Shown here: positions 28,398 through 45,631 of the stretch, one piece after another | Layout: the number at the start of each line of letters is the position of its first letter | Numbering within the stretch: position 1 is the first letter of the stretch | Assembly (NCBI RefSeq): GCF_000518245.1 | Contig: NZ_JADF01000008.1 | Location: 214,043-278,042, forward strand | From: Brachyspira alvinipulli ATCC 51933 | GTDB taxonomy: Bacteria > Spirochaetota > Brachyspiria > Brachyspirales > Brachyspiraceae | Length of the DNA stretch: 64,000 bases | Direction of reading: 5' to 3' | Notes under the pieces: generated by a model | Databases searched by the model: none | Told to the model about the DNA's origin: nothing | The model's input: only the letters and a program-made list of their open reading frames with translations | Translations under genes and position numbers: made by a program

Positions 28398-29273
28398 ATG
28401 CTGGATAATAATAAGATATTTGACTATATTAGTGAGAATGATAATATAAAGAGAATAAAAATATCTCATTCTATAAGAGGTGTATCTCAAAGTTTTGGAG
28501 AACTTCCAGAAATGGATTTAGAAATAGACCTTGATAAAGAATATAAAGACTATAAAAATGAAAAAGACAATGAATTAGATAATGTTATAAAAAAACTAAA
28601 TAATATATTATTATCAAAATTAAAAGAAAAAAATATTACCACAAAAGATAATATAGTATTATACGCAATAGCCCCTAACAGCATATTAGTATCCATTGCT
28701 TATATATTGGAAAAACATCAGTACCATTTCAATTTTCTTCCTAAACCTAAAGATTCTGCATCTTGGGGATTCAAAGATATTGAAATAGATGAACCTGAAT
28801 TAAAAAGTTTTATAGATAGTAAATCGAATGTTTTAAGAATAGATAATATAAATCAGCCTATAGGAATAATACTTTCCGGAAAATCCAATATAGATAATAT
28901 AGAGCAAGTTTATAAAGATGATAAAAATTTAATAATAAATAAAGGATTTGATTATTCTTACAGCAATATAATAACTATAACTCATCAATTAATATTAGAA
29001 GAACATTCTCATAAAAGTTTGCTTAATAAACATTGTTATTATTTATTCACAAAAAAAATAGATGAAATATTTGAAGATATTTTAAAATACAAAAAATTAA
29101 AAGAAGTTCATATACTAAGTTCAATACCAGCAAATGGACTTTTATATCTTGGAAAGAAGATAGCAAGTTATGAATATGATCATTTAAATTTTTATATTTA
29201 TAATTACAGTAAAGATAATGACAGATATGAACTTGGTACTATATTAAATACCAATTTATTAGAAGGATGTTAA
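28398..29273 (+). CDS. Orphan SAVED-like (CARF-like nucleotide sensor) protein
   Basis: This 291-residue soluble protein shows two similar Rossmann-like halves. The first has NIVLYAIAPNSILVSIAYILE followed by PKDSASWGF (about 85-125). The second has EVHILSSIPANGLLYLGKKI followed by YNYSKDNDRYELG (about 236-280). These match the two halves of SAVED domains as I know them: a hydrophobic strand, a conserved Pro, a helix with Leu-Gly, then an aromatic strand. SAVED domains sense cyclic oligonucleotides in CBASS defence and are normally fused to a nuclease or other effector; here there is none, nor a cyclase next door. Function is unknown. A terminator hairpin overlaps its stop. Confidence 0.62.
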   Translation: MLDNNKIFDYISENDNIKRIKISHSIRGVSQSFGELPEMDLEIDLDKEYKDYKNEKDNELDNVIKKLNNILLSKLKEKNITTKDNIVLYAIAPNSILVSIAYILEKHQYHFNFLPKPKDSASWGFKDIEIDEPELKSFIDSKSNVLRIDNINQPIGIILSGKSNIDNIEQVYKDDKNLIINKGFDYSYSNIITITHQLILEEHSHKSLLNKHCYYLFTKKIDEIFEDILKYKKLKEVHILSSIPANGLLYLGKKIASYEYDHLNFYIYNYSKDNDRYELGTILNTNLLEGC

Positions 29274-32885: not shown

Positions 32886-33926
32886 TTATAAATTTTCAAC
32901 AGCTACTTTTATACAATTGTCTTCTTTTTTATCAAATATCTCATAACCTTTTAGTATATCATCCAATCTTACCCTATGAGTAATAAGCAAATCTGTATTT
33001 ATTTTACCTTCAGATATTAACTTCAAAATTCTATCACTATGAACAGCATCAACTCCGCCTGTTTTGAATATTAAATTTTTTCCATACATAATATTTAAAG
33101 GAAGTGATTGAGGTTTTTCATACATTGCCACTAATGCTACTACAGAATTAGGTCTTGCTATCTTCCAAGCTAATTCAAATGTATTTTCTCCGCCTGCTGC
33201 TTCTATAGTTCCGTCAGAAAGTCTGCCGTTATTTATATCTTTTATATATTCTTTTATATTATTAACTTTATTAGGATTTAGAAAAAAGTCTGCTAATTTA
33301 TTTTCTTTTGCAATATTTAATCTGTCTTCATCTATATCAATGGCTATTATTTTTTTAGCACCAAAAACTCTTGCACTCATCATAGCACAAAGTCCTACAG
33401 GTCCTGATCCTATTATAGTAACAGTATCATCATTTTTTATTTCGCAAAGCTCAGCACCGAAATATCCGCTTGCTAAAATATCACCTACAAATAATGCATT
33501 ATCATAAGTTACATTTTCCGGAAGTATATTCAATGACATATCCGCATAAGGCACTCTTACATATTCAGCCTGACATCCATTAATACGGCATCCTATTTCC
33601 CAGCCGCCTTTTTCACAATTATTAATAAATCCATTTTTACAATAATAACATTCTCCGCAGAAAGTTATGCAGTTTCCTGATACTCTGTCGCCTTTCTTTA
33701 ATTTCTTGACTTCACTTCCAATTTCTACAATCTCACCTACAAATTCATGTCCAAGTACAATATTTTCTTTTGCTCTTGGTACTGCTCCGTTTATTATATG
33801 AAAATCACTTGTACATATGCTGGATAATGTAACTTTTACTATTGCATCTTTAGCATCTGTTATTTTTGGATTTTCTATTTCTTTTAATTCTATTTTCTTA
33901 TTTCCTAAATATACTAAACCCTTCAT
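32886..33926 (-). CDS. Zinc-dependent medium-chain alcohol/polyol dehydrogenase
   Basis: The 346-residue MDR-family enzyme has catalytic-zinc ligands in SSICTSDFH (Cys near 37) and LGHEFVGEIVEIG (His-Glu near 59-60). The structural-zinc lobe is CITFCGECYYCKNGFINNCEKG, broken here by its four cysteines. The Rossmann site is VTIIGSGPVGLCAMMSA. The substrate cannot be set; the family includes alcohol, threonine and sorbitol dehydrogenases. It is divergent from the NADAR gene, 78 bp apart, and monocistronic. Confidence 0.87.
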   Translation of the reverse strand: MKGLVYLGNKKIELKEIENPKITDAKDAIVKVTLSSICTSDFHIINGAVPRAKENIVLGHEFVGEIVEIGSEVKKLKKGDRVSGNCITFCGECYYCKNGFINNCEKGGWEIGCRINGCQAEYVRVPYADMSLNILPENVTYDNALFVGDILASGYFGAELCEIKNDDTVTIIGSGPVGLCAMMSARVFGAKKIIAIDIDEDRLNIAKENKLADFFLNPNKVNNIKEYIKDINNGRLSDGTIEAAGGENTFELAWKIARPNSVVALVAMYEKPQSLPLNIMYGKNLIFKTGGVDAVHSDRILKLISEGKINTDLLITHRVRLDDILKGYEIFDKKEDNCIKVAVENL

Positions 33927-33948
33927 TTTTATTCCTAATTTTATAATT

Positions 33949-33977
33949 TTGATGTTTTAATAATTTAATGATATACT
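33949..33977 (+). promoter_or_regulatory. Promoter of the NADAR operon
   Basis: TTGATG (33949-33954) and TATACT (33972-33977) with a 17-bp spacer are followed by a short leader and an AAGGA ribosome site just before the ATG at 34005. Confidence 0.6.
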
Positions 33978-34004
33978 CTTATAAAAGTTTTACAAGGATT
34001 TTTT

Positions 34005-34802
34005 ATGCAAAATATAATGCCTCCTATATGGTTTGTAAATAGTAGTTCTTATAATAAGGTGTTTAGTAATTATTTTAATAAACTTTCAAATGATGATAAA
34101 GAGGAGTATAAAAAACTCTTTGAAGAGCCTATAATATTTAAAGGTTTTTATGATACTAATTTAATAACTAATAATATATTTTTAAATAACAAAAAACAAA
34201 AATATTCTTTGGATAAACTTCAAAAAGATTTTAATAAAGGTAAAAAAATAGACTTTTTATTTTTCTACGGGCATACTTCTGATAAAAAAGAAATTACTAA
34301 ATCATCATTAAGTCAATGGTATATTAAAGATTTTAAAGAGAATGATTTAACATTTAATTGTATGGAAAAGTATATGATGTATAATAAGGCATTATTATTT
34401 GATGATAAAGACATAGCTCAAGAAATTTTAAATAGTAACCAGCCAAAAGCTATAAAAGAACTTGGAAGAAAAGTTAAAAATTTCAATGATGAATTGTGGG
34501 ATAAAATGAAATACAAAATAGTATTTACAGGTAATTATTATAAATTCTCACAAAACACCGATTTAAGAAATTTTTTATTAAACACAAAAAATAAAGTATT
34601 AGCTGAGGCTAGCCCTTATGATAAAGTATGGGGAATAAAGATGAAATATGATGATGAAAATATAGAAAATCCATTCTGCTGGAAAGGAAAAAATTTATTA
34701 GGTTTCGCTTTAATGGAAGCAAGATATGAAATAAAAAGAGTATATAAAAATTATGATATAATAGATTGGAAAATTTTTTATACTAAATATAATTTGAATT
34801 GA
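34005..34802 (+). CDS. NADAR-domain protein (YbiA-like, possible ADP-ribose N-glycosidase)
   Basis: The 265 residues comprise a lineage-specific N-terminus (1-80) and a NADAR domain (about 84-245). Signatures are FFYGHTS (86-92), SQWY (103-106), FNCMEKYMMYNKALLF (117-132), KELGRKV (151-157) and LAEASPYDKVWGIKM (199-213). NADAR proteins hydrolyse N-glycosidic bonds: YbiA acts on riboflavin-pathway intermediates, and others are reported to remove ADP-ribose from guanine in DNA as antitoxins to DarT-like toxins. Which applies here is open. The next gene is an ADP-ribosylglycohydrolase 36 bp away, which favours an ADP-ribose role. Domain identity is seen; the substrate is inferred. Confidence 0.82.
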   Translation: MQNIMPPIWFVNSSSYNKVFSNYFNKLSNDDKEEYKKLFEEPIIFKGFYDTNLITNNIFLNNKKQKYSLDKLQKDFNKGKKIDFLFFYGHTSDKKEITKSSLSQWYIKDFKENDLTFNCMEKYMMYNKALLFDDKDIAQEILNSNQPKAIKELGRKVKNFNDELWDKMKYKIVFTGNYYKFSQNTDLRNFLLNTKNKVLAEASPYDKVWGIKMKYDDENIENPFCWKGKNLLGFALMEARYEIKRVYKNYDIIDWKIFYTKYNLN

Positions 34803-34838
34803 TTTAATCTTTTATACAAAAATAGGAGCAGACATCAA

Positions 34839-35780
34839 ATGAATTTAGAAGATAAATTAAAATCCTCAATACTTGGACTTGCTGTTGGTGATGCTGTAGG
34901 CGTACCTTATGAGTTTATACCAAGAACAAAAATGAAATCAAAACCTGCTTATGATATGATAGGAAACGGTACTCATAATAAAGATGCTGGAACATGGTCA
35001 GATGATACTAGTTTAACATTATGTCTTCTTGACAGCATTCATAATAAAAATATAGATTACAATAACATTATGGATAAATTTGTATTATGGTATGATAAAG
35101 GATTTTATACTGCAGACGGAATTACATTTGATATAGGAATAACAACAAGTGATGCTATAAATAATTATAAAAATGGCAAATCTCCTTTAAAATCAGGATT
35201 AACAGATGAATATAGCAACGGTAATGGTTCTCTTATGAGAATACTGCCTATAGCATTTTATATAAAAAAATATTTTAATAGCCAATTATTTGAAAACAAT
35301 GAAATTATAAACATCATATACAATATTTCTTCATTGACTCATGGACATAAAAGAAGTTTAATAGCATGTGTTATATATACCGCAATAGCTTTAAATTTAA
35401 TAAATAATATGAATATTGAAGAAGCTATTAATAAAGCTCTAAAAGATTCTTATAATTATTATAAAAATGAAAAAGAACTCAATCATTACGGCAGAATATT
35501 TGAGCCAGATTTTAAAAATATCAATGAAGAAAAAATAGAAAGCGGAGGATATGTTGTGCATACATTAGAGGCTTCTATATGGATATTATTAAATACTTTA
35601 AATTATAAAGATGCTGTATTAAAATCTGTAAATTTAGGTTATGATACAGATACAACTGCTGCTGTTGTCGGAGGACTTGCCGGATTATATTACGGTATAG
35701 ATAATATTCCAAATGAATGGATAAATACTCTAATTAATAAAGAGCTTATAATTTCAATTTGCAATAATTTTTTGAATTAA
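34839..35780 (+). CDS. ADP-ribosylglycohydrolase (DraG/ARH family)
   Basis: The 313-residue all-helical enzyme of the DraG/ARH family removes ADP-ribose from modified macromolecules using two metal ions. Metal-binding motifs are intact: WSDDTSLTL (Ser54-Asp-Asp-Thr57), GNGSLMRILP (128-137) and LGYDTDTTAAVVGGLAGLYYG (266-286) with the late Asp pair. The N-terminal SILGLAVGDAVGVPYEF is also standard. An AGGAG ribosome site precedes the ATG. It sits second in a three-gene operon after a NADAR gene. The target (protein, nucleic acid or free ADP-ribose derivative) cannot be told from sequence. Confidence 0.92.
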   Translation: MNLEDKLKSSILGLAVGDAVGVPYEFIPRTKMKSKPAYDMIGNGTHNKDAGTWSDDTSLTLCLLDSIHNKNIDYNNIMDKFVLWYDKGFYTADGITFDIGITTSDAINNYKNGKSPLKSGLTDEYSNGNGSLMRILPIAFYIKKYFNSQLFENNEIINIIYNISSLTHGHKRSLIACVIYTAIALNLINNMNIEEAINKALKDSYNYYKNEKELNHYGRIFEPDFKNINEEKIESGGYVVHTLEASIWILLNTLNYKDAVLKSVNLGYDTDTTAAVVGGLAGLYYGIDNIPNEWINTLINKELIISICNNFLN

Positions 35781-35796
35781 TTAGTATGGGGATTGT

Positions 35797-36441
35797 ATGA
35801 CAAAGAATAATTTTTCTATTTTGTATAAGTTGATAATAATTATAATTGGAACTTTTGCTGTATTTCTTGGGATTTTTTATGATAATAATAATTTTAAATT
35901 TAATATAGAAACTTTGTATTATTTTACTTATCAAAGCAATATACTTGTAATAATTTATTTTTTAATAGATGTAATTAATATTATAAAGAATAAAGAAACA
36001 TTTTATCCAAGATTTAAGGGTGCTGTTACAATGTCAATAACTGTTACATTTTTGGTATATCATTTCCTATTAAGCCCTACATCAGGAGAATTAAATGGAT
36101 TAGATTATGTAAGAAATTTAATGGTTCATTATATAGTACCTATTATGACGATTTTAGACTATATTATATTTGACATTAAGGGTATTTATAAAATAATAGA
36201 TCCTATTCTTTGGCTTTTAATACCTATTATATATTTTGCTTTTATATTAATAAAAGCAAAAATAGGAAAACCTTTTTCAGATGGAAGTTATTATCCTTAT
36301 TTTTTTGTAGATATAGATAAATATGGTTTAAAAATTGTAATGAGAAATGTATTTTTTATTACATTATTTTTCACCGTATTAGGATATATAGAATATTTTA
36401 TAGATAAATTACTAATTAAATTAGGAAAAAATAAAATATAA
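35797..36441 (+). CDS. Pr6Pr/AIG1-like six-helix membrane protein
   Basis: This 214-residue integral membrane protein has about six hydrophobic segments. It resembles the FAR-17a/AIG1/Pr6Pr group: YYFTYQSNILVIIYF near residue 42, YHFLLSPTSGE, MVHYIVPIMTILDYIIFD near 110-127 and SYYPYFFVDIDKYG near the end. Some animal relatives are lipid hydrolases of the threonine-protease type; the bacterial role is unknown. It follows the ADP-ribosylglycohydrolase by 16 bp, so it is probably the third gene of that operon. Whether it has a functional tie to ADP-ribose removal is open. Confidence 0.72.
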   Translation: MTKNNFSILYKLIIIIIGTFAVFLGIFYDNNNFKFNIETLYYFTYQSNILVIIYFLIDVINIIKNKETFYPRFKGAVTMSITVTFLVYHFLLSPTSGELNGLDYVRNLMVHYIVPIMTILDYIIFDIKGIYKIIDPILWLLIPIIYFAFILIKAKIGKPFSDGSYYPYFFVDIDKYGLKIVMRNVFFITLFFTVLGYIEYFIDKLLIKLGKNKI

Positions 36442-42564: not shown

Positions 42565-43500
42565 TTGAAAAAAGTATATATAGCTGGCCATAAAGGTTTA
42601 GTAGGCAGTTCAATAGATAGAATGCTTACAAAAAATGGTTATACAAACATAATAAGAAAAACACATTCAGAATTGGATTTAAGAAACAGAGAAGATGTTT
42701 TTAACTTCTTCAAAAAAGAAAAGCCAGATTGGGTATTTTTATCTGCCGCTAAAGTAGGCGGAATATACGCTAATAATAAATACCCGGTTGATTTTTTGCT
42801 TTATAATTTGCAAATTCAAAATAATATAATAGAAGCATCTTATGAAAACAATGTGGAAAAATTAATGTTTTTAGGTTCAAGCTGCATATATCCTAAAGAA
42901 TGCCCTCAGCCTATCAAAGAGGAGTATTTACTTTCTGGATATTTAGAAAGCACAAACAGACCTTATGCATTAGCCAAAATTGCTGGAATAGAACTATGTG
43001 ACGCATACAATAGACAATACAATACAAATTACATTGCTGTTATGCCTTGCAATCTTTATGGAATAAATGATAATTACCATGAAGAAAATGCTCATGTAAT
43101 ACCAATGCTCATTAGACGTTTCCATGAAGCAAAAATGAATAATTTAAAAGAAACAGTTATTTGGGGAAGCGGAACTCCTTTAAGAGAATTTATGTTTTCT
43201 GATGATTTAGCAGAGGCTTGTCTTTATTTAATGGAAAATAAAAATGCCAATGATATAGGAAAATTTATAAATATAGGTTCAGGTAAAGAAGTAACTATTA
43301 AACAATTAGCAGAATTAATAAAAAAAGTTATAGGATTTGAAGGAGAAATAAAGTTAGACAGTTCTAAACCTGACGGCACTATGAGAAAATTGCTTGATGT
43401 TTCAAAAATTAATTCTTTAGGCTGGAAATATAAAACAGAATTAGAAGATGGATTAAAAATAGCATATAATGATTTTTTAAATAACTACAATAAAAAATAA
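42565..43500 (+). CDS. fcl: GDP-L-fucose synthase
   Basis: This enzyme epimerises and reduces GDP-4-keto-6-deoxymannose to GDP-L-fucose. The 311-residue SDR protein has [14 protein letters not shown] at the N-terminus, [28 protein letters not shown] with the catalytic Ser, and [12 protein letters not shown] with the Tyr-x-x-x-Lys pair. [20 protein letters not shown] follows, in two typical blocks. The start is TTG, with AAGGA 7 bases upstream. It lies between the Na/Pi gene and gmd with 20-21 bp gaps. Confidence 0.95.
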
Positions 43501-43521
43501 TAAAATTATAAGGAATACTAA

Positions 43522-44523
43522 ATGAAAAAAGCACTTATTACAGGAATTACAGGACAAGATGGTTCTTATTTAGCAGAACTTTTATTAGAAAAAGGTTATG
43601 AAATACATGGAATAATTAGAAGAAGTTCTTCTTTTAATACAGAAAGAATAGATCATTTATATAAAGATCCACATATTAATGATGTAAGAATGTTTCTTCA
43701 TTATGGAGATTTATCAGATAGTTCTAATCTTTCAAGATTATTAGAAAAAATAGAACCAGATGAAATATATAACTTAGCAGCCCAAAGCCATGTTAGGGTT
43801 AGTTTTGATATGCCTGAATATACAGCTGATGTTGTAGGACTTGGTACAATAAGAATATTAGATGCAATAAAAGAAACTCAAATAAAAACAAAATTCTATC
43901 AAGCATCAACAAGCGAATTATATGGTAAAGTTGTTGAAACTCCTCAAACGGAAAAAACTCCTTTCTACCCTAGAAGTCCTTATTCTTGTGCTAAATTATA
44001 CTCTTATTGGATTACTGTTAATTATAGAGAAAGTTATGATATGTATGCATGCAATGGTATACTATTTAATCATGAAAGCCCTAGAAGAGGAGAAACTTTC
44101 GTAACTAAAAAAATCACACATGCAATAGCTAAAATACTCAATAAAGAACAAGATAAATTATATTTAGGAAATTTAGACTCAAAAAGAGACTGGGGATATG
44201 CTAAGGATTATGTCGAAGCAATGTGGCTTATGCTTCAGCAGGAAAAAGCTGATGATTATGTTATAGCTACTGGAGAAACTCATTCTGTAAGAGAATTTCT
44301 TGATGAGGCTTTTGGACTTGTTGGACTTGATTGGAAAAAATATGTTGAAATAGACCCTAGATATTACAGACCTGCTGAGGTTGATTTATTATTAGGAAAT
44401 CCTGCTAAAGCTAAAGAAAAACTAGGATGGACACCAAAGACAACATTTAAAGAATTAGTAAAAATAATGCTTGAATATGATTTAAAAAATGTAGGATTAA
44501 GCTTGGATAAATTCAAAAGTTAA
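43522..44523 (+). CDS. gmd: GDP-mannose 4,6-dehydratase
   Basis: This enzyme makes GDP-4-keto-6-deoxy-D-mannose, the first step to GDP-fucose. The 333 residues start [20 protein letters not shown]. They carry [15 protein letters not shown], the catalytic [11 protein letters not shown] and [13 protein letters not shown], plus [17 protein letters not shown] and [19 protein letters not shown]. All hallmark parts are present. AAGGA precedes the ATG. It is co-transcribed with fcl upstream and the fucosyltransferase 7 bp downstream. Confidence 0.96.
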
Positions 44524-44530
44524 AAAATTC

Positions 44531-45631
44531 ATGGGTAAAAAATTAATTTTAAAAAAGAATTTGATAGAATATCTAGTATGGCTTATTCCAATTAAAAGTA
44601 TTAGAAATAGCATAAGAATTAACTCTATCTATTTAAAAGATTTGGGTTATAAAATAAATTATAATCATTATAAAGAAAGTATTAAAGATAAAAAAACTTT
44701 CTTTATTAGAAATGATTGGGATGTAAATGAAAAAGACTTTTTAAATAACTATTTCTACAATCTTATAAAAAATAATTATATTAATGATTTAGAAATTAGC
44801 TATAATCCGGATATAGAATTTTTTGCACCTGTTGGTAAAAGGTATTTTTTAGAAAAATCTAATGCAAAAATTAAAATATTTTATACTGGGGAATGCGTAT
44901 CAAAAAGTACTATAAATAAAATATGGTCTCAATATTCTGACAATTGTATTAATGATGTAGATTTATCACTTGGATTTGATAAACTCGATGAAAATAAATA
45001 TACAAATTATGTACGCTTCCCTATTTGGATATTTTATCATTTTCACGGATTACTGGATAATAAAAACTACACTAAAGATAATATAAGAAAAGTTATAGAT
45101 GATATAAATAATGCTAGATCAAAAAAAAATAAATTTGCCTCATTAGTGGCAAGCCATGATGTATCTGGAATAAGAAATCAAATGTATAAGCAAATTTATA
45201 AAATAGATACTATATCATGTCCAAGCAGATTATTTCACAATGATAATACATTAAAAAAGGATTTTAATAATAATAAAATAGAATATTTAAAAGATTTTAA
45301 ATTCAATATATGTCCTGAAAATACTATTAGTGAAGGATATGTAACTGAAAAACTTTTTGATGCATTCAAATCTGGAAGCATACCTATATATAATGGAGAT
45401 GAAAATATAGAGTCAGATTTAGTTAATAAAAATGCATTACTGTTTTTCAAAAAAGATGAAGATAATAAAGAATTAATAAAAGAGATAGATAAATTAAATA
45501 AAGATGATAAATTATTTGATTCATTTCAAAAACAAATAAAAATATATGATTCTATGATAGACTATCTTTGGGAAAGAAGAATCAAAATTTTAAATAAATT
45601 AGAAACACTTATTAATGAAAAACTAATTTAA
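44531..45631 (+). CDS. Family GT10 alpha-1,3-fucosyltransferase
   Basis: The 366-residue protein carries the alpha-1,3-fucosyltransferase motif KFNICPENTISEGYVTEK (about 257-274), followed by LFDAFKSGSIPIYNGD. A fitting N-terminal half contains KIFYTGE and DLSLGFDKLD. These enzymes move L-fucose from GDP-fucose to GlcNAc or glucose in glycans. It follows gmd by 7 bp, directly after the genes that make the donor. The extreme N-terminus is basic and amphipathic with no signal peptide; the C-terminal heptad repeats of Helicobacter enzymes are absent. The acceptor is unknown. Its TAA overlaps the stop codon of the opposite-strand transglycosylase gene in a shared TTAA. Confidence 0.9.
   Translation: MGKKLILKKNLIEYLVWLIPIKSIRNSIRINSIYLKDLGYKINYNHYKESIKDKKTFFIRNDWDVNEKDFLNNYFYNLIKNNYINDLEISYNPDIEFFAPVGKRYFLEKSNAKIKIFYTGECVSKSTINKIWSQYSDNCINDVDLSLGFDKLDENKYTNYVRFPIWIFYHFHGLLDNKNYTKDNIRKVIDDINNARSKKNKFASLVASHDVSGIRNQMYKQIYKIDTISCPSRLFHNDNTLKKDFNNNKIEYLKDFKFNICPENTISEGYVTEKLFDAFKSGSIPIYNGDENIESDLVNKNALLFFKKDEDNKELIKEIDKLNKDDKLFDSFQKQIKIYDSMIDYLWERRIKILNKLETLINEKLI

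Follow-up and report, generated by a model that had tools for sequence, protein, structure and literature searches.

Adjacent NADAR and ADP-ribosylglycohydrolase genes in Brachyspira: a possible lineage-restricted cluster of orphan ADP-ribose erasers

The window, that is, the whole 64,000-nucleotide stretch of DNA that was analysed, contains three closely spaced genes on one strand next to a divergent alcohol dehydrogenase gene. The features are as follows.

32886-33926, minus strand: Zn-dependent alcohol dehydrogenase, divergent from NADAR
33927-34004, no strand assigned: 78-bp intergenic region between the alcohol dehydrogenase and NADAR genes; likely promoter region
34005-34802, plus strand: NADAR (YbiA-type) hydrolase, 265 amino acids; domain at residues 87-243 plus an N-terminal extension of ~85 residues
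34839-35780, plus strand: ADP-ribosylglycohydrolase of the ARH/DraG fold (ARH), 313 amino acids; PF03747
35797-36441, plus strand: Pr6Pr-family six-helix membrane protein, 214 amino acids; NF038065

Open reading frames and domain matches agree with the original prediction on the position and strand of all three genes and on the gaps between them, 36 bp between NADAR and ARH and 16 bp between ARH and Pr6Pr. Stretches resembling ribosome-binding sites (AGGA, GGAG, and GGGGA) were seen by eye upstream of the three starts. Because the gaps are this short and no terminator-like site was found in the region of the trio, the three genes are likely co-transcribed. A single promoter is plausible; the 33927-34004 region is kept together with NADAR in five Brachyspira genomes at 86-100% identity, and promoter-like matches at the locus (33) are not commoner than chance (28 +/- 5.7 in shuffled sequences). 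No Rfam match was found in 33.0-38.5 kb.

The first protein is assigned to the NADAR superfamily by its match to PF08719 (E 6.5e-50; 170 bits against a cut-off of 35.1), and it also scores 167.6 bits with TIGR02464, the riboflavin N-glycosidase model, whose curated cut-off is 73.7. In the predicted structure the domain is mostly well modelled and the N-terminal part of ~85 residues is of low confidence; a fold search with this model returned, among solved structures at E <0.001, only 8bau (P. nicotianae NADAR) and E. coli YbiA (2b3w). Seven of the eight positions that contact ADP-ribose or act in catalysis in 8bau are identical here (E43, K50, R79, and W89 correspond to E121, K128, R155, and W165, and E125, D130, and W133 to E201, D206, and W209), the sole substitution being that of R93 by K169. 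E121 and K128 are invariant across 21 sequences, and E201, aligned to P. nicotianae E125, is likewise invariant. By a published subfamily rule, Glu at this position denotes YbiA and Asp the DarT1-linked (BC4488-type) NADARs (PMC11543638), and because residue 201 is Glu, the sequence places the Brachyspira protein in the YbiA subfamily and not with the DarT1-antitoxin type. It has in common with 2b3w and 8bau the fold, the ADP-ribose site, and the subfamily-defining Glu, whereas the ~85-residue N-terminal extension is a feature of the Brachyspira protein; moreover, E. coli ybiA sits in the LexA-controlled dinG/rhlE/ybiB operon, and the Brachyspira gene does not. As an enzyme, it would be an N-glycosidase that removes guanine-linked or soluble ADP-ribosyl or ribosyl adducts, or that pre-empts damage by riboflavin intermediates.

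The second protein belongs to the ARH/DraG ADP-ribosylglycohydrolase family (PF03747, E 2e-74, 251 bits). In an alignment of 18 sequences the motifs SDD and DTDT are invariant and FDIG nearly so, and we take these three to be the paired Asp/Thr metal site of the fold; NGNGS and LTHxH are also kept, with rare exceptions at most. The motifs of both hydrolases had been described as intact, and the residues of the ADP-ribose site in the one and of the metal site in the other are indeed present. The closest solved relatives of ARH are 8za7 and 6dre. Lmo0067 (8za7), a Listeria member of the ADP-ribosylglycohydrolase family, aligns over the full length (residues 4-312, E 2.2e-77) and has the same motifs. 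The Tri1 ADP-ribosylarginine hydrolase (6dre) aligns with the ARH domain end to end, but the alignment begins at position 66 of the Tri1 model, the N-terminal extension of Tri1 being missing, and the score of 211.8 bits falls below the equivalog cut-off of 490; in addition, no ADP-ribosyltransferase (ART) toxin was found next to the Brachyspira ARH. A Tri1 immunity hydrolase in the strict sense was thus rejected on score and on the missing extension. By analogy with these relatives, ARH probably has a binuclear Mg2+ site and would strip ADP-ribose from modified proteins, arginine being the likeliest acceptor; without the Tri1 extension, catalysis would be its only mode of action.

The third protein matches NF038065 at 82.1 bits (cut-off 30), and its predicted model (mean pLDDT 90.9) has six long helices, in keeping with the six-helix membrane protein originally proposed. 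T44 is nearly invariant and H111 invariant; the two resemble T47 and H131 of ADTRP, one of the ADTRP/AIG1 hydrolases, which we record as a lead only. A hydrolase of the AIG1/ADTRP (FAR-17a) kind was considered and set aside, since neither Pfam nor the PDB gave a sequence match and a fold search of the PDB gave nothing significant; none of 26 Pr6Pr sequences matched an AIG1-family Pfam model at E up to 10. The best fold resemblance is a moderate one, to six-helix proteins encoded by baculovirus ORFs (the better matches have TM 0.68-0.74, and the lowest E is 3.6e-3). The literature library searched contained no paper on Lmo0067 or Pr6Pr.

The survey of gene content and adjacency covered 26 Brachyspira genomes and 172 others, together a 198-genome Spirochaetota sample, as well as viral loci and plasmid records; other bacterial phyla lay outside the adjacency survey. 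NADAR occurs in 16, ARH in 17, and Pr6Pr in 22 of the 26 Brachyspira genomes, the ARH total including a distant subtype (G001 and G002), split frames (G004 and G024), and a remnant only (G006). NADAR and ARH adjoin in just three, the genome under study (G000), G020, and G018, and 13 of the 16 NADAR genomes have no ARH adjoining it; in G008 and G022 NADAR adjoins the same alcohol dehydrogenase without ARH, and elsewhere it stands among other gene sets. Ankyrin-repeat-like and other recurrent families adjoin NADAR in several species (loci L033-L038 and L041), suggesting a rearranging region. Pr6Pr adjoins ARH in 13-14 Brachyspira species, usually at another locus: beside an intact ARH in G000, G020, G018, G014, G023, G022, G005, G025, G003, and G008, and beside a broken one in three, G024, G004, and G006. 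Pr6Pr is thus a genomic companion of ARH within the genus, and since it is intact next to the split or remnant ARH (L054, L055, and L056), it is not dependent on ARH.

Outside Brachyspira, the 172 Spirochaetota genomes yielded NADAR in 6, ARH in 70, and Pr6Pr in 14, and a comparison of coordinates gave no adjacency of any pair of the three. In viruses, where 80 loci with NADAR and 80 with ARH were examined, the two genes were never together within ~5 kb and no Pr6Pr was seen; no plasmid record had both NADAR and ARH among the matches listed (60 each). A search of genome contigs with a single ARH sequence returned two Brachyspira contigs only, both from known trio carriers. The proposed adjacency of NADAR and ARH therefore recurs, in three species of two diverged lineages and not in a single species, yet within only one genus of the collections searched. 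The further suggestion of a new three-part system is not supported, given this limit and the separate inheritance of ARH-Pr6Pr and NADAR elsewhere.

Where it occurs, the trio is old and not a recent accident, and it has stayed intact over a long time, because between G000 and G018 NADAR, ARH, and Pr6Pr have diverged much like gyrB (synonymous distances of 0.68, 0.63, and 0.53 against 0.70; these and the following distances were each estimated from one pair of genomes with a simple method). Purifying selection acts on each gene of the trio, with dN/dS of 0.12-0.19 for G000 against G020 and G018. A grouping of the three trio carriers as one clade is rejected by GyrB (AU p 0.0007), whereas the ARH and the Pr6Pr sequences of these genomes each form one clade with 100% bootstrap. 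Most simply, the trio is ancient, has persisted in two lineages, and has been lost or split up elsewhere; an old transfer of the trio between the two lineages is possible. The genes downstream of the trio are conserved too, and its persistence is therefore not specific. Between G008 and G014, the distances for ARH (0.31) and Pr6Pr (0.21) are smaller than that for gyrB (0.58); both genes are thus younger than the species split, as horizontal transfer would give, which suggests that ARH-Pr6Pr moved between species separately from NADAR. NADAR itself looks transferred in the G022-G016 pair, where its distance is 0.41 against 0.73. Such patchiness, decay, and transfer fit accessory genes of the immunity type, but equally any dispensable gene.

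The original prediction had found no ART in the window. This stands for the flanking genes between 27 and 47 kb, the part covered by our Pfam and NCBIfam scans, in which none was found, and no DarT was found in the whole G000 genome. A search with the ART model PF03496 gave no match, but its control was silent as well. As far as the tests reach, then, the description of the two hydrolases as orphan erasers with no writer nearby holds. In two other Brachyspira genomes, G005 and G007, a DarT gene does occur, with a gene for a DarG-like macrodomain protein directly after it (DarG recognized by eye); these pairs (L077 1438-3158 and L078 1438-3157) lie downstream of what appears by eye to be an isoleucyl-tRNA-synthetase-like gene.

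As enzymes, NADAR and ARH are unremarkable representatives of families already known. The reading we prefer, with about even confidence, is a lineage-restricted cluster of independent orphan erasers, an ARH serving immunity and a YbiA-type NADAR, and not a dedicated three-part system. By analogy, ARH would confer broad immunity, countering ADP-ribosyltransferases that arrive with phages or from rival bacteria.

The alternative that survives best takes NADAR for a damage-control N-glycosidase of the riboflavin pathway, the YbiA/COG3236 role, unrelated to ADP-ribosylation and only coincidentally next to ARH. A match to ribD was found in all 26 Brachyspira genomes, in 25 of them over its cut-off, and the riboflavin intermediates that YbiA-type enzymes use are for that reason probably made in the genus. 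Because NADAR is YbiA-type and ribD universal, this role retains some weight, and the TIGR02464 score far above cut-off speaks for it as well. However, NADAR is missing from 10 of the 26 genomes although all match ribD, and it is not near ribD (contigs C15 and C4, respectively). Furthermore, every NADAR that the Ahel group tested, YbiA among them, cleaves ADP-ribose from guanosine in vitro, and in a myxobacterium a YbiA serves as antitoxin to an ART, although YbiA gives no protection against DarT1 in cells (PMC11125620). A grouping with the riboflavin-pathway YbiA enzymes, together with inaction on ADP-ribose, was to count against the original prediction: the grouping is borne out by Glu201, TIGR02464, and ribD throughout the genus, and the prediction is touched in that part only. 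On balance we regard the riboflavin role as rather unlikely.

Less probable is a dedicated eraser-only module made as one transcript, in which NADAR would serve nucleic acids and ARH proteins while Pr6Pr anchors, senses, or transports. Tight spacing on the same strand, intact active sites, and an old arrangement common to two diverged lineages are what such a module would look like, and Iyer et al. 2022 predicted writer-less, ARG-centred systems against viral ARTs with NADAR as an occasional partner (PMC9503650). The Brachyspira locus has in common with those systems an ARH without a coupled ART or sirtuin, as judged from Pfam and NCBIfam scans of the neighbours. However, the scan of flanking genes (27-47 kb) showed none of their other partners, the Nudix/WYL regulator, rhodanese-phosphatase, and chaperone, and the recurrent ARH partner in Brachyspira is instead Pr6Pr. 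The arrangement is, moreover, confined to 3 of 26 Brachyspira, with 13 of the 16 NADAR genes and the majority of ARH genes elsewhere, and is absent from the other collections searched; we consider the module improbable.

Quite improbable, too, is that the locus supplies antitoxins to an ART toxin encoded far away in the genome: both families include antitoxin or immunity proteins (the DarT1-linked NADARs and Tri1), but G000 lacks a DarT, and the DarT genes of the two other Brachyspira are each followed by a DarG-like gene of their own. The specific case of a DarT1 antitoxin was rejected, since no DarT was found in the genome and E201 marks the wrong subtype; with DarTG1 the Brachyspira protein has only the NADAR superfamily in common. 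Most doubtful is an old eraser set kept by selection in a few Brachyspira, in which Pr6Pr would work with ARH, its repeated neighbour in the genus, against ADP-ribosylation by phages or rivals and NADAR would cover nucleic acids.

Even as a cluster of independent erasers the locus keeps some interest, because ARH and Pr6Pr are repeatedly paired in Brachyspira and because the trio is old in both lineages that carry it. A layer of bacterial immunity made up of ADP-ribose erasers without a writer has been predicted but hardly put to the test. The locus would allow such a test on a small scale in a gut spirochaete, and close relatives with an intact, a broken, or no copy of each gene provide natural comparisons. 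A new three-part system would matter more, if true, but the distribution does not support one.

Two further observations concern other parts of the window. A SAVED_TM protein (28398-29273, plus strand), which PADLOC assigns as a CBASS-type effector (E 1.1e-92), is encoded between TsaD and an oxidoreductase gene and looks orphan, no nucleotide cyclase being found among the immediate neighbours scanned. At 42565-45631 (plus strand), genes for an epimerase, a GDP-mannose 4,6-dehydratase, and an alpha-1,3-fucosyltransferase-like protein follow one another in a row and may constitute a surface-fucose pathway.
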